A stretch of DNA of 53,597 nucleotides from a bacterium BMS3Bbin13 (GTDB taxonomy: Bacteria; Pseudomonadota; Gammaproteobacteria; 21-64-14), in assembly GCA_002897735.1 (NCBI GenBank), contig BDTW01000030.1, positions 1-53,597 on the forward strand. The letters are read 5' to 3'. Numbering within the stretch: the first letter of the stretch is position 1; every line of letters starts with the position of its first letter. The translations under genes and the position numbers were made by a program. The notes beneath the pieces are model-generated. The model was not told the DNA's origin and did no database searches. It worked only from the letters and a program-made list of their open reading frames with translations. Shown here one piece after another: positions 5,669 through 39,462 of this stretch.

Positions 5669-8600
5669 ATGCTCAGGTACATTGTCACCGCCTCGCTGCG
5701 GCATCGCTGGGTAGTGCTGGCTCTGGCCGGCATGTTGGTCATCTATGGTGGTTACCGCCTCGGCGCTGCGCAATACGATGTATTCCCCCAGTTCGCCCCG
5801 CCTCGGGTCGTGATCCAGACCGAGGCGCCGGGACTCGCACCCAGGCAAGTCGAGCAACTCATCACCACCCCCATAGAAAGTGCCGTGAGCGGTGTACCCG
5901 GTATCCAATCGTTGCGCTCCGGTTCGATTTTGGGCTTGTCGGTCATTACCGCGATCTTCGACCCGAACACCGATATTTATCGTGATCGCCAGGTGGTGGG
6001 GGAACGGATTTCCGCCGTCTCAGGCCAATTGCCGACCAGCGCCAAATCCCCGGTGATGACTCCCCTGATCTCGTCGACCGGCAAGGTGCTGGTCGTGGGG
6101 CTGACGTCCAAGATCCGCTCTCCGATGGACGTACATACGTTGGCCCAATGGACCGTGCGGCCCCGGCTGCTGGCGGTCAAAGGTGTGGCCAACGTGGTAG
6201 TCACCGGCGGTGAGGTGCGCCAGCTGCAAATTCAGTTGCACCCGAAAAAACTGGTGCAGTACGGGCTGTCCGTTGAAGACGTCACTTCCGCCGCGCGGCG
6301 AGCGACCGGTATACGCGGTACGGGGTTCATCGATACGCGCAATCAACGCATCGAACTGCAGACCCAAGGCCAGTCGCTCAGCCCGGCCGCCCTGGCCGAC
6401 ATTGTGCTGACCACTCGGCACGGGGTGCCCGTCACGCTTGGGGACGTTGCCCGCGTCCGGGCGGCACCCGCACCGCCCGTCGGAGCCGCGCTCATCAATG
6501 GCCGGCCCGGCGTCGAATTGAGCATTTTCGAGCAGTACGGCGCCAACACGGTGCAGGTTACGCAGCGCCTTGAGAAAGCACTACACGACCTGCAGCCCGT
6601 GCTCAAGGCCGCTCACATTCGGATGTGGCCCAATCTGTTCCGACCGGCGACGTTCGTCCATCGCTCCATCGACCATCTGCGCTCCACCTTGGCGATCAGC
6701 GGCTTCCTGGTCGTCACGGTGTTGTTCTTTTTCTTGTTCAACTGGCGTACGGCCCTCATTTCGCTGGCCGCGATCCCGCTGTCGCTGCTGACGGCGACCC
6801 TGGTGCTGGACCTGTTGAACTACACGCTGAACACCATGACTCTTGGGGGCTTAGCCATCGCCGTCGGCCTGCTCGTCGACGATGCAGTCATTACCGTCGA
6901 GAACATCTATCGCCGCCTGCGCGAAAACCAAGCCGCGCCCCGACCTCGTCCGGTGTTTCGCGTCATCCGCGACGCCACGTTAGAAGTGCGCAGCGCCGTC
7001 GTCTATGCCACATTCGCTATCGCCATGGTTTTTATTCCGGTGCTCACGCTGCCTGGCGTGGCCGGACGCCTCTTCGGGCCATTAGCCTACGCCTACATCG
7101 TGGCCACGTTGGCTTCGCTCGGGGTTGCGCTGACGGTAACGCCGGCACTGAGCTTTTGGCTATTGGCACGCGGCGAGCCCAAGTCACACGAACCGCCGCT
7201 GATTGGTTGGCTGAAGCCGCGCTACGGTCGTTTGCTTGGCCATATCGAACGACATTATCGCCTCGTGGCCGGAACCGTAGTGCTGGCCACGGTCGCCGGA
7301 TTGGCCGTGACACCTTTCCTCGGTGCCCGCTTTATCCCCGAACTCAATGAGGGGCATTTCATCGTGCGCATGACCGAGGCCGCCGGCACATCGTTGGACC
7401 AAAGCGTGGCCCTCGGAAAAACCGTGGCACGCGCTCTGTTGCAGTTGCCCTATGTCCGCTCGGTCGCCCAGAAGATCGGTCGCGCACCGCAAGCCGAAGA
7501 TGTCCTGGGGCCGAACTCCAGCGAATTCGACGTGGACCTCAAGCCGCTCACCGGAACCCAGTCACGGGTGGCCCGGCGTGCGATCGAAAATACCCTGGCC
7601 GACATTCCGGGTGCGAACTTTTCGCTCAAAACCTTTCTGTCTGCACGCATCGAAGAAACCGTCTCTGGCCAGATGGTCCCTGTCGTGATACACGTTTTCG
7701 GTAACCGCCTGGAGACGATGAACAGGAATGCCGAGGTCATCGTCCGGATATTGCGCCAAATGCCCGGGGCAGACGGTGTCCAACTGCAAGCGCAGCCTAC
7801 CAGCCCGAAGATTATCGTGAAATTGCGACCTTCCGCTTTGAAGCGGTGGGGTTTTCATCCGCTGGACGTACTGGATACATTGCATACCCTCTATGCCGGA
7901 GATGTGGTAGGCCAAATCTATGATGCAGACCGTATCTTCGATGTTTCGGTTATCCTGCCACATAAGGATCGCTCCAGCGTGGCCGACGTGGGTAACCTGC
8001 TGCTCAAAAGTTCGAGCGGTGTCTACGTGGCGCTCAAACAGATTGCGCGCCTGCATATGGCCACCTCGCCCACAACTATCCTGCACGAAGGGGGGCGGCG
8101 CGTGGTCACAGTGACTGCAAACGTGCTGGGCCGCGACGTAGCGTCGTTCGTGGCACAAGCGAGACGGCGCATCGCACAGATCGTTCACCTGCCCGCCGGC
8201 AGCTACGTGGAGTATGCGGGTACCGCGCAAGCCCAGATGCAGTCCAGGCGACGCCTTCTCGTCAGCGCATCGATCGCGGCGATATTCATCGTTCTGCTGC
8301 TCTCTTTGGTGCTCGCTTGGCCGCGTAATCTTCTGCTGATCCTGGTCAATCTTCCCTTCGCTCTGGTCGGCGGTGTGCTGTCCGTATTGGCGTTTTTGGG
8401 GGGCACCCTGTCCATGGGCGGCATGGTTGGATTCGTGGCCGTTTTCGGCATCACCCTGCGTAACTCCATCATGCTCATCGCTCACAACGAACACCTGGTC
8501 CGTAAGGAGCATGTTGCATGGGGGCCGAAGACGGCCATCCGCGCCGCCCAGGAGCGGATGGCCCCGATTCTGATGACCGCATTAGTCACGGCGTTCGGCC

Positions 8601-17704: not shown

Positions 17705-20584
<2,880 letters not shown>

Positions 20585-30105: not shown

Positions 30106-31641
30106 GTGTCGGCGCGCGGCGACGGCCCGGGCGGCAATCGGCGGCGCGGCCGCCCGGGCGCGGCCGCGCGTGGTGACCTGCTGGCGCTGGGCGCGGGCGC
30201 GATCCTGCCGCTCGCATTCGCCCCGATCGACTGGTTCCCCGTCACCTTCCTCTCGCTCGCCGGGTTGTTCCTGCTCTGGCGGGAAGTCGGCCCGCGCCGG
30301 GCCCTGTGGCGCGGCTGGTTGTTCGGCGTCGGAATGTTCGGCGTGGGCGCCTCCTGGGTGTTCGTCAGCATTCACCGCTACGGCAACGCCTCGGTCGTAC
30401 TCGCCGCGCTGCTGACCGCCCTGTTCGTGGTGTTGCTCGCCGGGTTCCCGGCCGTGGCGGGCGGCCTCGCGCGGCGCTTCGGTACAGGCACGGTGGGGTT
30501 GGCGCTGGGGTTTCCGGCGTGGTGGATGCTGATCGAGTGGCTGCGCGAGTGGTTTCTCACCGGCTTCCCGTGGCTGTCGGTGGGCTACAGCCAGCTCGAT
30601 GCACCGCTGGGCGCGTTGGCGCCCGTGGCCGGTGTCTACGGTGTAGGGGCCGCCGCCGCCCTCACCGCGGGCTGCACCGCGGCCGCCCTGACCGCACCCG
30701 GGCGCCGACGGGTGTTGCCGATGCTCGTGATCGTGGCGTTGTGGGGTGCGTCCTGGGGGCTGGGGTGGGTCACCTGGACCCGCCCGGTGGGTGCGCCGCT
30801 ACCTGTCAGCCTGGTGCAGGGCAACGTGCCGCAGGACCTGAAGTGGCGCCCCGACCGGCTGGACTCGATCCTCGAACGCTATGCCGGGCTCACCGCGCGC
30901 CACTGGGACAGCCGTCTCATCGTCTGGCCGGAGACCGCGGTGCCGGCCTTCTACCATCAGGTCCGCGCCGCGTTCCTCGCACCCCTGGCCGCGCAGGCGC
31001 GCCGCCACGACACGACCCTGTTGATCGGCGTGCCGGTGCTCGAACCGGTCACCGCCCGCTACTACAACGCCGTTGTGCGGCTCGGTGCCGGCGGCCCGCC
31101 GGCGTTCTATTTCAAGCACCACCTGGTGCCGTTCGGCGAATATGTCCCGCTGCACGCCTACCTCGACAACCTGCTGCGCTTCCTCGACATCCCCTGGTCC
31201 GACTTCAGCGCCGGTGCCGCCTACCAGCCGCCCTTGAAAGTCGCCGGCCGGCCGATCCAGACCTCGATCTGCTACGAGGACGCCTTCCCGACGGAGATCA
31301 TCCGCTACCTGCCGCGCGCCCAACTGTTGATCAACGTGAGCGACGACGCCTGGTTTGGGGATTCGCTCGCGCCGCACCAGCAATTGCAGATGGCGCGCAT
31401 GCGCGCGCGCGAGACGGGACGTTACCTGTTGAGTGACACCAACGACGGAATCACCGCGATCGTCGGCCCGCGCGGCGCGATCCTGGAACGCGCCCCGCAG
31501 TTCCGCACCCGCGTATTGAGCGGCACCGTGCGCTTCATGGAAGGTGCGACCCCGTACGTGCGCTGGGGCAATCTCCCGGTGGTGATCCTGTGCGCCCTCG
31601 GCGCCCTCGCCGCGGCCATCCCGCTCGCCCGCCGCCGGTAA
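30106..31641 (+). CDS. lnt: Apolipoprotein N-acyltransferase
   Basis: Transfers the third acyl chain to the N-terminal Cys of lipoproteins in the inner membrane; 511 residues (E. coli 512). Six to seven membrane helices lead into a nitrilase-like periplasmic domain. The catalytic triad is intact: E276 (VWPETAVP), K337 (FYFKHHLVPFGEY) and C389 (TSICYEDAFP). A final membrane helix (LPVVILCALGALAAAIPLA) ends the protein. GTG start, one base after corC. The 3' end has been duplicated: a decayed copy of it lies at 32122-32302. Confidence 0.95.
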   Translation: MSARGDGPGGNRRRGRPGAAARGDLLALGAGAILPLAFAPIDWFPVTFLSLAGLFLLWREVGPRRALWRGWLFGVGMFGVGASWVFVSIHRYGNASVVLAALLTALFVVLLAGFPAVAGGLARRFGTGTVGLALGFPAWWMLIEWLREWFLTGFPWLSVGYSQLDAPLGALAPVAGVYGVGAAAALTAGCTAAALTAPGRRRVLPMLVIVALWGASWGLGWVTWTRPVGAPLPVSLVQGNVPQDLKWRPDRLDSILERYAGLTARHWDSRLIVWPETAVPAFYHQVRAAFLAPLAAQARRHDTTLLIGVPVLEPVTARYYNAVVRLGAGGPPAFYFKHHLVPFGEYVPLHAYLDNLLRFLDIPWSDFSAGAAYQPPLKVAGRPIQTSICYEDAFPTEIIRYLPRAQLLINVSDDAWFGDSLAPHQQLQMARMRARETGRYLLSDTNDGITAIVGPRGAILERAPQFRTRVLSGTVRFMEGATPYVRWGNLPVVILCALGALAAAIPLARRR

Positions 31642-31676
31642 TCGGCGGCCGGTAGGGCGCAACATGAAGGAGCCCC

Positions 31677-31760
31677 GCCCCCGGATTCCGCTTTGCTCCA
31701 TCCAGGCTACACCCCGAATCCCCTGTAGCCCGGATGCAGGCCGCAGGCCGAAATCCGGGG
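31677..31760. repeat. Dispersed REP-like repeat pair after lnt, copy 1
   Basis: Two inverted units of a repeat family that I recognise from many proteobacterial genomes: on the minus strand GTAGCCTGGATGGAGC... (31710-31677) and on the plus strand GTAGCCCGGATGCAGGCCGC... (31725-31760), both ending in ATCCGGGG. The whole segment 31639-31790 recurs at 32300-32448 with few changes. Confidence 0.75.
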
Positions 31761-31816
31761 ACCCCGCCGCCGCACTGTTATCGTCCGCGCAGGAAAGGGG
31801 ACGCCATCCTTCTTTG

Positions 31817-32098
31817 CTACGCTGCTTCCCGTACACGCATTTCGATGCGCAGGCCGGCGGCGGTAGCCATGTTGGCCAGGGAATCCAGGCTGAACAGGCC
31901 AATCTTACCGCGCATGAGATCGGAGACGCGCGGCTGCGTGATACTGAGCCGGCGCGCGGTTTCCGCCTGGGTCCAGCGCTGCTTGTGGATGTGCCTTTCA
32001 AGCGCCATCATCAGCGCCGAGCGGAGTTTCATGTTTTCCGCTTCGGCCGGGGTGTCCTCGATCGCGTCCCATACGCTGGCGAAGCCTTCGTTGCTCAT
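31817..32098 (-). CDS. Orphan XRE-family HTH protein, HigA-like antitoxin (COG5606 type)
   Basis: A 93-residue helix-turn-helix protein. Start MSNEGFASVW (32098); the longer frame would translate the decayed lnt copy. The HTH is QTQ-like: RWTQAETARRLSITQPRVSD, followed by LFSLDSLANMATAAGLRIEM, the arrangement of single-domain antitoxins that pair with HigB/RelE-type toxins (often annotated XRE-family transcriptional regulator). The toxin gene, normally upstream in the same operon, is absent: upstream lies lnt debris. It may be a stranded antitoxin or a regulator of a distant toxin. It sits between the two copies of the lnt 3' duplication. Confidence 0.8.
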   Translation of the reverse strand: MSNEGFASVWDAIEDTPAEAENMKLRSALMMALERHIHKQRWTQAETARRLSITQPRVSDLMRGKIGLFSLDSLANMATAAGLRIEMRVREAA

Positions 32099-32121
32099 TG
32101 GTCCAACTCCTTCACTGGATT

Positions 32122-32302
32122 CCGGTGCCGCCCCTAAAGGTTGCCGGCCGGCCGATCCCAGATCTCGATCTACTACGAAGACGTCTTCCCGACGGAGATC
32201 ATCCGCCACCTGCCGCGCGTCCAACTGCCGGCGCTGAGGCAATCTCTCGGTGGTGATCCTGTGCGCCCCCGCCGTGGCCATCCTGCTCGCCCGCCGCCGG
32301 TA
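32122..32302 (+). pseudogene. Decayed duplicate of the lnt 3' end
   Basis: Bases 32122-32228 align with lnt 31211-31326 (CCGGTGCCG ... CAACTG) with many transitions and about ten missing bases. After an internal gap of about 240 bases the match resumes at 32238 (GGCAATCTC, lnt 31567) to the TAA at 32301-32303. The frame is lost. It is followed by a second copy of the post-lnt repeat. Confidence 0.8.
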
Positions 32303-32339
32303 ATCGGCGGCCGGTAAGGCGCAAAATGAAGGAACCCCG

Positions 32340-32422
32340 CCCCCGGATTTCGCTTCGCTCCATCCAGGCTACACCCCGAATCCCCTGTAGCCCGGGTGCA
32401 GGCCGCAGGCCGAAATCCGGGG
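32340..32422. repeat. Dispersed REP-like repeat pair, copy 2
   Basis: Second copy of the inverted repeat pair found after lnt (31677-31760); units at 32372-32340 (minus) and 32387-32422 (plus). Together with the decayed lnt piece it shows that one segment of roughly 580 bases (31211-31790) was duplicated. Confidence 0.75.
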
Positions 32423-32479
32423 ACCCCGCCGCCGCACTGTTATCGTCCATGCCACACACCGTGCAGAAGCGTTGGCCAT

Positions 32480-32653
32480 TTACTTCTCCTTGCGGATGCC
32501 CTTGAAAGGCGTCCCGTCCGCTTTCTGGTCCATGAATCGCCCGGAATCACTGTCCTGTTTGGTCCAGCGATCGTTCTGTCGGTCGTATACCTGGGAACGG
32601 TCCCGGACCGCGCCGTTCCGGTGTCCATCGTCCTTCGGAGGATTGGTTGCCAT
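32480..32653 (-). CDS. 57-residue protein of a widespread uncharacterised family
   Basis: Small basic protein on the minus strand beginning MATNPPKDDGHRNG and ending DGTPFKGIRKEK, with the middle part RDRSQVYDRQNDRWTKQDS. The pattern GAV(R/K)DRSQV...W(T/V)KRD...GRFMD.K.DG.PFKGVRKE is one I recognise from many bacterial small hypothetical proteins; no function is known to me. A good ribosome site (GAGG, 32665-32662) is eight bases before the ATG. Divergent from the XRE-ImmA gene at 32797, across an AT-rich intergenic region with two palindromes, so it may share regulation with that system. It overlaps an out-of-frame 103-codon minus-strand frame that I reject. Confidence 0.75.
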   Translation of the reverse strand: MATNPPKDDGHRNGAVRDRSQVYDRQNDRWTKQDSDSGRFMDQKADGTPFKGIRKEK

Positions 32654-32724
32654 GACAGTAACCTCATGTTAATCCAGTTGGTCCTGCTCTTGCGCCGCTT
32701 GACATCCTGACCACCATGGATTAG

Positions 32725-32763
32725 GTTTACATAAACAGCGAATATTATCAAGTTTTGTAAACT
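32725..32763. promoter_or_regulatory. Paired palindromic operator-like sites before the XRE-ImmA gene
   Basis: GTTTACATAAAC (32725-32736) and AGTTTTGTAAACT (32751-32763) share the half-site GTTT(A)/(T)AAAC; their centres are about 27 bases apart. They lie in an AT-rich stretch between the divergent 57-aa gene and the XRE-ImmA gene, 34 bases before the latter's ATG. Binding by the XRE domain is inference. A TTGACA occurs at 32699-32704 but its spaced -10 is poor, so I do not define the promoter. Confidence 0.5.
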
Positions 32764-32796
32764 ATAGAAAATCAGATACCCTTCGGAGCGACCAGA

Positions 32797-33867
32797 ATGA
32801 TCGGGGACCGTATCAAGCAGGCCCGCCAGGCGGCGGGCCTTTCTTTGCGTGCGCTGGCGGAGCAGGCGGGCGTTTCCGCCATGGCCATTTCCAAGTACGA
32901 GAACAACAAATCCACCCCCTCATCGAAGGTCCTGTTGGCGCTGAGCCGGGTGCTGGGGGTGCGGGTCGAGTATTTCTTCCGGCAGGCCAAGGTCGCGCTC
33001 GAAGAGGTGGAGTACCGCAAGTACACTCACCTGCCCAAGCGTGTACTCGCACAGATAAAAGGCGACGTCATCGAGCAGGTGGAGCGCTTCCTGGAGTTGG
33101 AGGACTACCTGCCCACCTGTCCGATCGAGATTTTCCGGCCGCCGGTCGACCTACCGCAGCACATTAACAACTATGCGGAAATCGAAGAGGTGGCCTGCAA
33201 GGTGCGCGAGGCGTGGCAACTGGGCCTCAATCCGATCCCGGGGCTGACTGACACTCTGGAGGAGCGCGGCATCCTGGTGTTCCAGTCCGAAGCGATCCAT
33301 GGCGACCGGTTCGACGGTTTGGCGGCGACCGTCGACGGTATACCTGTGGTGGTCGTCGGTGCCGGCTGGCCCGGCGATCGGCAGCGATTCACCCTGGCCC
33401 ACGAGTTGGGACATCTTATGCTCAAGGGGCGTTTGAACACCGCGCTGGGCGAGGAGCAGGCCGCCAACCGATTTGCCGGCGCCTTCCTCGCGCCCGAGTC
33501 GGAGGTCCGCAAGGAACTCGGTGAGCGCCGTACCCGGCTGGAAGTGCGCGAGCTTTGTGTGCTGAAAAAGGCCTACGGCCTTAGTATGGGCGGCTGGCAA
33601 CATCGCGCCAAGGATTTGGGCATCCTATCGGAAGCGGCCTATCGGTCCATGGTCCGCTATTTCCGTATGCGCGGCTGGCACAAGCACGAGCCCTGCGACG
33701 ACTACCCCCGCGAGCAACCCCTGCTCTTCACCCAACTCGTCTACCGTGCGCTGGCCGAAGACCTGATCGGCGAGTCAAAGGCGGCCGAGCTGCTGCGCAT
33801 GCCTCAGGCGGATTTCCACGCCCAACGGAACATGGATCGTGCAGAACCGGCAACTGTTGATCAGTGA
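32797..33867 (+). CDS. XRE HTH - ImmA/IrrE metallopeptidase fusion (proteolytic antitoxin/regulator)
   Basis: 356 residues. The N-terminal XRE DNA-binding domain (IKQARQAAGLSLRALAEQAG, then KYENNKSTPS) is followed by an ImmA/IrrE (COG2856) zinc peptidase with HELGH at 202-206 and a third ligand at E219/E220 (EEQAANRFAGAFLAP). Such fusions act as repressors or antitoxins whose peptidase half cleaves partner regulators, known from ICEBs1 ImmA, Deinococcus IrrE and several toxin-antitoxin loci. The next gene, a PIN-domain protein, overlaps it by 29 bases, strong evidence of a two-gene system. Base composition is less GC-rich than the flanking housekeeping genes, suggesting acquisition. Confidence 0.88.
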   Translation: MIGDRIKQARQAAGLSLRALAEQAGVSAMAISKYENNKSTPSSKVLLALSRVLGVRVEYFFRQAKVALEEVEYRKYTHLPKRVLAQIKGDVIEQVERFLELEDYLPTCPIEIFRPPVDLPQHINNYAEIEEVACKVREAWQLGLNPIPGLTDTLEERGILVFQSEAIHGDRFDGLAATVDGIPVVVVGAGWPGDRQRFTLAHELGHLMLKGRLNTALGEEQAANRFAGAFLAPESEVRKELGERRTRLEVRELCVLKKAYGLSMGGWQHRAKDLGILSEAAYRSMVRYFRMRGWHKHEPCDDYPREQPLLFTQLVYRALAEDLIGESKAAELLRMPQADFHAQRNMDRAEPATVDQ

Positions 33868-34336
33868 CGCCAATGTCCTGATCGACATGGAGGTCGGAGG
33901 GCTGCTGGGGGTCATGTTCAGGCTGGACCTCGCGTTCGCCGTCCCGGATATCCTATTTGAGGAGGAACTGAAAAGCCGCCATCCCCGGCTTCCCGGCCTG
34001 GGGTTGGGTGTCCTGGAACTCACGGCCGAGATGATCTACGACGCGATGACGTTGATCGTCCACGGCTATCGGCGCACCAGCCGCAATGACCTCCTGGTCC
34101 TCGTCCTGGCGCGCCGGAAAGGATGCCCCGTCCTGACGGGCGACGCCGCCCTGCGACTTGCCTGCAACGAACAAGGCATCGATGTGCATGGAACGATCTG
34201 GTTGGTGGAGCAGATGTTGAACGGCAAGCTGGTTGATCCCAAAACCGCTGCCGAAGCCTATCGCGCCATGCGGGAAGGCGGCAGCCGCCTACCCTGGTGT
34301 GAAGTGGATCGACAACTGGCTCGGTTTCAGGGCTAG
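33839..34336 (+). CDS. PIN-domain protein, probable RNase toxin of the XRE-ImmA system
   Basis: 165 residues, GTG start overlapping the ImmA gene by 29 bases. PIN-fold acidic residues are visible: D10 and D16 (ISDANVLIDME), the EEEL cluster at 41-44, D84 (SRNDLLVLVLA) and D102 (LTGDAALRLA). PIN domains of this size are Mg-dependent RNases and serve as VapC-type toxins; pairing of COG2856 antitoxins with PIN toxins is described. The C-terminal 45 residues (from about LVDPKTAAEA) form a helical tail. A hairpin with TTTT follows 60 bases downstream. Toxicity is inferred. Confidence 0.8.
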   Translation: MQNRQLLISDANVLIDMEVGGLLGVMFRLDLAFAVPDILFEEELKSRHPRLPGLGLGVLELTAEMIYDAMTLIVHGYRRTSRNDLLVLVLARRKGCPVLTGDAALRLACNEQGIDVHGTIWLVEQMLNGKLVDPKTAAEAYRAMREGGSRLPWCEVDRQLARFQG

Positions 34337-34396
34337 GAGTCTGTCGGAGTCGTCGAGGGCGAACCGGGGCCGCCCGTTTCGCGGAGGACCGGGATG

Positions 34397-34416
34397 AACC
34401 GCCCGGCGGCGGTTTT
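34397..34416 (+). terminator. Intrinsic terminator of the XRE-ImmA-PIN operon
   Basis: AACCGCC-CGGC-GGCGGTT (34397-34414) with TTTT beginning in the stem's last bases. It sits between the convergent PIN and zinc-ribbon genes, directly at the latter's stop codon. A short T tract makes it moderate in strength. Confidence 0.5.
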
Positions 34417-34979
34417 CAGTCCCCGGTCCCCGTCGGGCGGTGGAATACTGTGCCCTGGCACCGTGGGCAGGGCGGGATGTGGCCGGTGTCGCGAAAATGG
34501 ATCCGCTCGCCGCACGCGACGCACTCCAGCACTCCGGGGCCGGCGATCTCTCCGGTGTGGTATTCGGCGTTGCGCGCCAGGTCGGCCTGCAGCCGGATCC
34601 AGTCCAGGCGCGTGTGGTCGGCGGCGTCGGCGAACCATTGGAGCAACTGGCCCTCGATCAGTCCTACGTCGATTTGCAGCCAGTCGGCCAGTTCGCGCCC
34701 GCTCTCGGCCAAGTAGCGGGAGGCGTCCTCCAGGTCGCGTTTGAGGAAATAGCCGATCCGTTCGGCCTCGTCGCGCGTCAGCTCCCCGAGTTCCACGGCC
34801 GTCTCTTTGGCCGAGTCGATGCTCCGGTGCAGGGCCGGGCGGTCGGTGGCGGGCCCTTCGCCCTGCGCGAGGAACGCGCGGACGCGCTCGAGCATGCGGT
34901 TGTAGGCCTGGGTCAGCCGCTCGGCGGCGGGCGGGTGTTCGTCCTTCGGGGGTCGGGGCGGATTCCGGGGAGAGGTCAT
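34416..34979 (-). CDS. Zinc ribbon-containing protein (DUF1451)
   Basis: 187 residues, cytoplasmic, function unknown. Helical N-terminal two thirds (ERLTQAYNRMLERVRAFLA and LADWLQIDVGLIEGQLLQWF) and a C-terminal zinc ribbon: CVACGERIHF ... CPRCQG (CxxC-CxxC). Start at MTSPRNPP (34979); the frame is open for another 210 codons upstream but those cross repeats and the ParE-type operon on the other strand. In Pseudomonas-like genomes a homologue lies between lnt and leuS, so this is the backbone gene in an otherwise accessory stretch. Divergent from the insertion that carries the second toxin-antitoxin pair. Confidence 0.82.
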   Translation of the reverse strand: MTSPRNPPRPPKDEHPPAAERLTQAYNRMLERVRAFLAQGEGPATDRPALHRSIDSAKETAVELGELTRDEAERIGYFLKRDLEDASRYLAESGRELADWLQIDVGLIEGQLLQWFADAADHTRLDWIRLQADLARNAEYHTGEIAGPGVLECVACGERIHFRDTGHIPPCPRCQGTVFHRPTGTGD

Positions 34980-35020
34980 GGGTACGCTCCGGGGGTCGGG
35001 CGCTCGTGCCCGGGTACACC

Positions 35021-35038
35021 TAGTGTGCCCCATCGCGG
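35021..35038 (+). repeat. 18-base direct repeat, left copy
   Basis: TAGTGTGCCCCATCGCGG, identical to 36345-36362. The two copies bracket the toxin-antitoxin pair and the noncoding DNA around it between the zinc-ribbon gene and leuS. Confidence 0.75.
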
Positions 35039-35050
35039 GTCCCCGGTAAA

Positions 35051-35143
35051 ATGGGGACAGACCACGGTTTCCAATGGAGCGACGGTGGGAACCCGTGGCC
35101 TGTCGCGGATTTTCACGTATTTTCGGATTTTTCTTGCCGCCAA
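35051..35143 (+). repeat. About 90-base direct repeat, left copy
   Basis: Begins ATGGGGACAGACCACGG, continues through CCCGTGGCCTGTCGCGG and ends near CTTGCCGCC. It recurs imperfectly at 35823-35908. The two copies flank the antitoxin-toxin operon. The GGGGACAGAC core is one I associate with dispersed repeats near REP-associated transposases in proteobacteria. Confidence 0.65.
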
Positions 35144-35288
35144 CCTCAGCATCAAGCCGGATGACTTTGGGTGCGCCCCGTTTCCCCGGCACGGCGGTAT
35201 CGGGGAAACCCATCAGTTGTTCGGCCGAGATCTCGTGTCCATAATTGAGACGCTGAGCGCCGCCCTGGTTGCCTGAAGGAGGTACCCC

Positions 35289-35528
35289 ATGCCCGTCAAA
35301 CCCGACCCCAATAAAATCCTCGACGAGGCTATGAAGCTCGATTCCATCGCGCGCGCGTTCGTCGCCGAAACGCTCATCGAAAGCCTGGACCTTGATCAGG
35401 ACTTCGCCGTTTCGTCGGAGTGGCTGGAGGAAATCCGCCGCCGCTGCGCGGATATCGATAGTGGGAAGGCGCGGCTGATCGATGGCGCCATGGTCCTCAA
35501 CGAGCTGCGAGGAAAGCACACACGATGA
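35289..35528 (+). CDS. Addiction-module antitoxin (PF09720-like)
   Basis: 79 residues, acidic, helical. The order of features is that of the 'putative addiction module component' family: DEAMKLDSIARAFVAETLIESL, then WLEEIRRRCADIDSGKARLI and a short tail. It should bind and neutralise the downstream toxin. Excellent ribosome site AAGGAGG seven bases before the ATG. Its stop overlaps the toxin ATG (ATGA), so translation is coupled. No DNA-binding domain is obvious, as usual for this family. Confidence 0.85.
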   Translation: MPVKPDPNKILDEAMKLDSIARAFVAETLIESLDLDQDFAVSSEWLEEIRRRCADIDSGKARLIDGAMVLNELRGKHTR

Positions 35529-35815
35529 AGGTGCTCTGGCATGGGGAAGCCAGGGCGGAGGCAAACGCAGCCACCGCCTTCTACAACGAAAAACAACCCG
35601 GCCTCGCACAGCGCTTCCTCGATGATCTCGAAGAGGCGCTGCGCAGAATACGGCGCCATCCTCAGGCCTATCGCCAAATGGACGGCGAAATACGCAAGTG
35701 CAGGGTGGCGCATTTCCCCTACGGGGTCATCTATCGGGTGCGGCCTGATTTCATCGAGGTCATCGCCGTCATGCACCTGCGCCGTTCGCCGGGATATTGG
35801 GAACAAAGAGCCTGA
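35525..35815 (+). CDS. ParE/RelE-superfamily toxin
   Basis: 96 residues of the ParE/RelE fold: VLWHGEARAEANAATAFYN, ARAFL-like LAQRFLDDLEEALRRI, HPQAYRQMDGEIRKCRVAHF and YGVIYRVRPDFIEVIAVMHL. The conserved hydrophobic-Arg pattern RKCRVAHFPYGVIYRV before the final strand is typical of the members that pair with PF09720 antitoxins. Target (gyrase or mRNA) cannot be told. Overlaps the antitoxin gene by four bases. Confidence 0.87.
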   Translation: MKVLWHGEARAEANAATAFYNEKQPGLAQRFLDDLEEALRRIRRHPQAYRQMDGEIRKCRVAHFPYGVIYRVRPDFIEVIAVMHLRRSPGYWEQRA

Positions 35816-35822
35816 CAGATTG

Positions 35823-35908
35823 GTGGGGACAGACTGCGGTTTCCAACGGGGCGACGACGGTGAACCGTGGCCTGTCCGGGTTTTCTTCGGATTTCTTGCG
35901 GCGGAATC
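35823..35908 (+). repeat. About 90-base direct repeat, right copy
   Basis: TGGGGACAGACTGCGG ... GGCCTGTCCGGG ... CTTGCGGCGG, the partner of 35051-35143, starting eight bases after the toxin stop. Confidence 0.65.

Positions 35909-39462
<3,554 letters not shown>

Follow-up and report, generated by a model that had tools for sequence, protein, structure and literature searches.

How does an antitoxin gene come to stand alone, without its toxin, between two copies of the end of another gene? The question is raised by a locus in the window (the whole stretch of 53,597 nucleotides of the bacterium BMS3Bbin13 that was analysed), where a sequence-only reading had noticed that the 3' segment of lnt is present twice, with a helix-turn-helix (HTH) gene between the copies. 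The features of the locus are as follows.

30106-31641, plus strand: lnt, apolipoprotein N-acyltransferase, intact, 511 aa (Pfam LNT_N 1.9e-37, CN_hydrolase 6e-29)
31211-31786, plus strand: copy 1, the native lnt 3' end with a dispersed repeat (31665-31772) and a unique tail
31817-32098, minus strand: orphan antitoxin HTH_37, an open frame of 93 aa (PF13744 3.3e-23, 81.7 bits against a cut-off of 27)
32095-32126, minus strand: toxin stub, the remnant of a Gp49-type toxin (about nine C-terminal codons, RNPVKELDQ, plus the stop codon), which overlaps the start of the antitoxin gene
32122-32126, no strand: joint CCGGT, common to the toxin end and lnt; the lnt alignment begins at 32122
32122-32448, plus strand: copy 2, a decayed lnt 3' fragment with a dispersed repeat (32327-32434) and tail, occupying the place of the toxin
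Tail of copies 1 and 2: GTTATCGTCC
Flank to the right of copy 2: ATGCCACAC

Alignment of the two copies, which had been proposed as a check, upheld the duplication, with 305 of 326 aligned bases identical. Copy 1 ends at 31786, not at 31790 as first given, and the HTH gene does lie between the copies, on the minus strand. The differences comprise 20 transitions and one transversion, in line with the many transitions already noticed in copy 2. Relative to copy 1, copy 2 lacks 11 (31216-31226), 225 (31327-31551), 5 (31555-31559) and 9 bases (31592-31600), and carries one inserted base at 32157. The internal gap described as about 240 bases is real, its exact extent being 233 bases of copy 1 (31327-31559) against 3 of copy 2. 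The repeat extends 145 bases beyond the lnt stop, across the dispersed repeat.

In a search of the whole own genome the two parts of copy 2 match copy 1 at E 4.6e-89 and 1.1e-30, which excludes chance similarity. Approximately 108 bases of each copy are members of a dispersed repeat family, and 119 of the 122 own-genome matches fell inside this stretch. The lnt part matched nowhere else in the genome, and the tail GCCGCACTGTTATCGTCC occurs there just twice, once in each copy, when up to two mismatches are allowed. Since the tail and the lnt part are confined to these two places, the copies are a true duplication and not merely two members of the repeat family. The dispersed repeat is about 100 bases long and often forms tandem arrays with steps of ~104-169 bases, at sites including C21:2801-3570, C27:6517-7939, C37:15876-16303, C38:63460-63972 and C44:74060-74953. 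The Y1_Tnp transposase family has eight matches in the same genome.

To tell the native end from the duplicate we used lnt of a congener, which is 80% identical. Of the 21 substitutions, the 15 in lnt were polarised by the congener, and the six outside lnt are not polarisable. At 11 of the 15 coding sites the congener has the base of copy 1, and at the other four that of copy 2. Among the 11 changes thus assigned to copy 2, nine alter the protein (one of them to a stop codon and another, C to Y, in the SICYED stretch, which holds the catalytic cysteine of Lnt), and ten are GC to AT transitions. From the agreement with the congener and the altering changes, copy 1 is the native end, and copy 2 is, by this pattern of substitutions, a decaying fragment with no selection on its protein. 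Two earlier claims are borne out in this way, namely that copy 2 has decayed (deletions, GC to AT bias, nine of 11 changes protein-altering) and that the working lnt terminus was kept. The last ~430 bases of lnt are 79% identical to the congener versus 77% for the 5' part, and since the 3' part is no more diverged than the 5' part the native end does not seem to have been imported.

The HTH gene had been called antitoxin-like, and its match to HTH_37 supports that assignment. Using tblastn, relatives were found in 507 of 72,556 plasmid records (best ~72% identity) and in 85 of 50,697 phage records; the best identity found was 74%, in genome G262, and a search of the whole congener genome gave no match. 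On three plasmids (L135, L136 and L138) a RelE/ParE-type toxin gene lies directly upstream, and its last four bases overlap the start of the antitoxin gene; all three toxins scanned belong to the Gp49 family. On another plasmid (L137) no toxin is annotated upstream, yet a full-length toxin was detected by tblastn. The orphan locus thus shares with toxin-first Gp49 (PF05973)/HTH_37 (PF13744) modules both the antitoxin family and the overlap of the upstream toxin stop with the antitoxin start, but differs in that the toxin body is gone and an lnt fragment stands in its stead. The antitoxin-sized frame of 93 aa has no adjacent toxin partner, i.e. it is an orphan antitoxin. A related pair is present elsewhere in the own genome (contig C23, L121:340-961), with an antitoxin 42% identical to the orphan and a full toxin before it; this pair could cross-talk with the orphan antitoxin.

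Six annotated toxins used as queries gave no match near the antitoxin (480 bases upstream) at E 1e-3. The window was also searched for a displaced toxin with 25 upstream frames of relatives, picked by script and including those of L135, L137 and L149, which are not true toxin frames; the best match (E 0.041, at 1682-1870) was unconvincing. What is left of the toxin was read by hand in the toxin frame, against the toxin end of the closest relative (L139, YADLVKELDQ-stop). The stub and the L139 toxin share the ending VKELDQ-stop, and the stub is in the correct frame and place, with its TGA (32097-32095) overlapping the antitoxin ATG (32098-32096), the arrangement also seen in L135, L136 and L138. 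Inside the stub, 8 bases before the antitoxin start, AAGGAG at 32107-32112 forms the ribosome-binding site.

At the DNA level, blastn aligns 31819-32126 with modules on plasmids of Acidiphilium cryptum and Acidithiobacillus ferrooxidans (73.5% identity, E 7e-41). Among the 15 matches listed, the right end is 32126 in three, 32124 in one and 32115 in 11 from Xanthomonas, and the 5-base overlap with lnt depends on the three closest that reach 32126. Both homologies meet at CCGGT, which places copy 2 where the toxin body and any promoter before it would have been.

Since the joint falls inside the toxin, the module was most likely present before the second lnt end, and the duplication would most likely have come after the module was in place, not at its entry. 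The sequence-only reading had favoured a cassette that duplicated its target on entering; this is not supported as the main reading, as the left end of copy 2 falls within what is left of the toxin gene that belonged to the antitoxin. Its alternative, a tandem duplication that trapped the gene, came nearer to the mark, but missed that the duplicate had taken the place of the toxin.

We consider it likely that a toxin-antitoxin pair lay downstream of lnt, that a later rearrangement replaced the toxin with an lnt end, and that the antitoxin survived. The sequence itself shows that the lnt end was duplicated and the duplicate decayed, that the toxin is missing, and where the stub and the joint lie; the order of events, the mechanism of the exchange and any present function are inferred. 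The starting point would have been a toxin-first Gp49/HTH_37 pair downstream of lnt and convergent with it. An illegitimate rearrangement at CCGGT would then have fused the approximately nine last toxin codons to position 31211 of an lnt allele, so that a second lnt 3' end and its repeat pair replaced the toxin body and any promoter before it. The simplest single event would be an unequal exchange in which one chromosome carried the module and the other was empty; copy 2 and its right flank would then represent the old empty site. The resulting order would be lnt, repeat, tail, antitoxin, stub, joint, lnt end, repeat, tail and right flank. The single-event model is drawn from the exact right end of copy 2, and an exchange with a single joint would explain why copy 2 ends exactly where the similarity to copy 1 ends. 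Afterwards copy 2 would have decayed without selection on its protein, while the antitoxin kept an open frame and a ribosome-binding site of its own. The same product may have arisen by tandem duplication and subsequent deletion of the second antitoxin and the toxin (two events) or by template switching (two jumps); a cassette may also have arrived already cut inside its toxin.

Other explanations are less likely. Entry of the HTH cassette by recombination, with duplication of the target lnt 3' end, would account for the position of the gene between the copies and would suit a family whose relatives are often plasmid-borne (507 of 72,556 records). However, the right border lies inside the former toxin, so that the cassette must have come pre-cut, and the 335 bases between the copies hold antitoxin and stub only, with no recombinase gene; this explanation is improbable. 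Integrative elements are known to leave foreign DNA flanked by direct repeats of a gene end. An integrase-driven element that inserted at the lnt 3' end, carried a replacement gene end and later shrank to one gene is nevertheless very improbable, as the repeat runs 145 bases past the lnt stop and through the dispersed repeat, there is no integrase between the copies, and copy 1 is at least as close to the congener as the remainder of lnt is. In the list of open reading frames, no recombinase-sized frame is confined between the copies.

An assembly error might be suspected in a draft genome of 62 contigs with many dispersed repeats, but 21 aligned sites and five indels distinguish the copies, and the toxin stub sits exactly at the joint. 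An artefact is therefore unlikely, and the chance that we would assign to it is minute. Equally hard to credit is a copy 2 that has been kept for a role, for example with the leader of the antitoxin transcript acting as an antisense RNA against lnt mRNA. The leader strand is indeed complementary to lnt mRNA over copy 2 (305 of 326 bases identical), but copy 2 lacks one stretch of 225 bases and several shorter ones, its mutations are biased from GC to AT, and no promoter was found.

The likely replacement of a toxin by an lnt end can be set in the wider surroundings of the locus, where the following genes flank it on the right.

32480-32653, minus strand: PDC-S38-like gene in the right flank of copy 2, 57 aa (PADLOC PDC-S38 6.8e-30)
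34416-34979, minus strand: DUF1451 zinc-ribbon gene (PF07295 6.3e-47), older neighbour of lnt and leuS

The source order is represented by two genomes, that of the window included. The congener was searched whole with the antitoxin, with lnt and with window positions 34300-37500; otherwise, stretches from two of its contigs were compared. Synteny with the congener stops at 31613, 28 bases short of the lnt end, and in the congener DUF1451 directly adjoins leuS. A scan of genome contigs for lnt yielded 79 distinct loci, with a best listed identity of 51% besides the congener (80%). A DUF1451 gene lies at most ~300 bases downstream of lnt in eight of 108 loci (L014, L021, L025, L028, L029, L044, L071 and L088). 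In many of the others the downstream sequence is short, and one locus is counted twice, as L010 and L042. In a ninth, L030, DUF1451 is ~1.4 kb away. Taking lnt-DUF1451 adjacency as the older order, the block 31642-34415 appears to be inserted DNA with small genes of a toxin-antitoxin or defence character.

This block contains a small defence-like or toxin-antitoxin-like cluster. The 57-aa PDC-S38-like gene had no match in Pfam or NCBIfam. It is accompanied by a regulator with an HTH and an M78 peptidase (ImmA/IrrE-like) part at 32797-33867 (PADLOC RmrA 3.7e-52), and by a weakly PIN-like gene, below Pfam's cut-off, at 33839-34336, the last small gene before DUF1451. A further toxin-antitoxin pair, at 35289-35815 (Unstab_antitox 2.4e-11, ParE toxin 7.1e-13), separates DUF1451 from leuS and looks like a second insertion, because the congener has these two genes side by side. 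The lnt frame of the congener itself enters foreign sequence, GGGGACAGTATACCTATTACCCG, at its very end (L042, ~7425-7515), and this sequence recurs after a nearby gene; the lnt end thus adjoins foreign DNA in both species. Elsewhere in the window, 17791-18121 and 18820-19153 cross-match other parts of the same congener syntenic region (66-68% identity), pointing to related genes or to a duplication within the region. The left border of the module was considered as part of a known element, and was rejected as such: GGGGACGCCATCCTT occurs in the window at chance frequency (3 matches, 3.0 expected). A longer string from this border had no exact match in viral contigs.

Whether the antitoxin is still in use was approached from its sequence. 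Compared with nine close relatives, it departs from four of 47 invariant positions, the most of the ten (the others depart from 0-3 of 43-46); in a wider set of 17 it departs from none of 16 invariant positions. In a neutral model run at the substitution rate of copy 2, no stop codon arose in the frame in 49% of 20,000 runs, with ~9.7 amino-acid changes, and the neutral chance of no frameshift was ~0.23 and that of no indel at all ~0.09. These figures hint weakly at selective constraint on the antitoxin. No sigma-70-type promoter was found at 31600-32800, and the same interval has one terminator-like site versus 1.1 expected. Most likely the gene survives as a solitary antitoxin or repressor. 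Toxin-bearing modules related to it occur on plasmids and phages, and a putative role in neutralising related plasmid-borne toxins (anti-addiction) is possible.

We have also surveyed upstream toxins at 84 loci, the window included. Eleven were set aside since their antitoxin frame was not intact by the rule of the script (L121, L142, L144, L148, L161, L164, L165, L167, L190, L204 and L213); among these, L121 is a complete pair whose start was mis-set, and the antitoxin of L190 is cut by a contig end. L192 was omitted, being the same locus as L142. Among the 73 loci that remain, all with the antitoxin frame intact, the upstream toxin is at least 80% complete in 58, 20-80% complete in six (L153 and L214 run into a contig end, and L193 has 78%), and less than 20% complete in nine. 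These numbers are not frequencies, because the loci were found via the antitoxin family and near-identical records are included.

In four of the nine loci with less than 20% toxin, a toxin end of roughly 8-16 codons is kept. It is supported by alignment in the window and in L176, by a weak match (E 0.094) in the viral contig L182 and by eye only in L202. The toxin end was not seen in the other five (L149, L163, L189, L201 and L210). Plasmid pACMV1 of Acidiphilium multivorum (L176) is the case most like the window in that a same-family antitoxin without a toxin is preceded by YRDLVKEL, the end of the toxin, which matches exactly over 8 residues (E 0.013); a toxin upstream is absent both from its annotation and by tblastn. 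Stubs were also seen by eye in L144 and L148, where the antitoxins are broken, and L141, with a far longer toxin end of ~45 codons, speaks against a simple stub rule. Since the ribosome-binding site of the antitoxin sits inside the last codons of the toxin, toxin loss might tend to halt just before it. That toxin loss stops short of this site as a repeatable route, leaving a stub of ~8-16 codons and a translatable solitary antitoxin, is a possible though rather doubtful generalisation.

The toxin-first Gp49/HTH_37 order has been described in Tn3-family transposons, in the accessible part of PMC7157771. The same part describes Tn5501.5, in which the toxin gene is truncated by mutation and the antitoxin is intact. 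The likeness to the window locus lies in the broken toxin and the kept antitoxin; the difference is that the toxin of Tn5501.5 was lost by mutation and not to a duplicated neighbour, and that the relatives of Tn5501, except Tn5501.12, carry ParE/ParD modules according to that text. Orphan antitoxins are reported to be abundant, and the portions available of PMC7192599 and PMC7354431 ascribe them to degraded pairs, unrecognised partners or anti-addiction. The Klebsiella orphans (PMC7192599) and those of the cross-interaction review (PMC7354431) resemble the window locus, as far as these portions go, in having an antitoxin frame without a toxin, but in the window the stub and the joint show the route of toxin loss, with an lnt fragment as replacement. 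With a best identity of 74% the window antitoxin would miss the 75% threshold given in the available portion of PMC7192599. Orphan antitoxins as a kind are already known; the rearrangement in the window is real and clearly readable. In the literature searched we found no account of a toxin replaced by the duplicated end of a neighbouring gene.

The locus shows, almost base by base, one route by which a toxin is lost and its antitoxin kept. The dead lnt copy in addition offers a glimpse of how mutation proceeds without selection in an uncultured high-GC bacterium. If the stub route were true, stand-alone immunity genes would arise repeatably and the window locus would be one case among several. 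If the pattern proved wider, a signature of ~30 bases would trace orphan antitoxins to former pairs.
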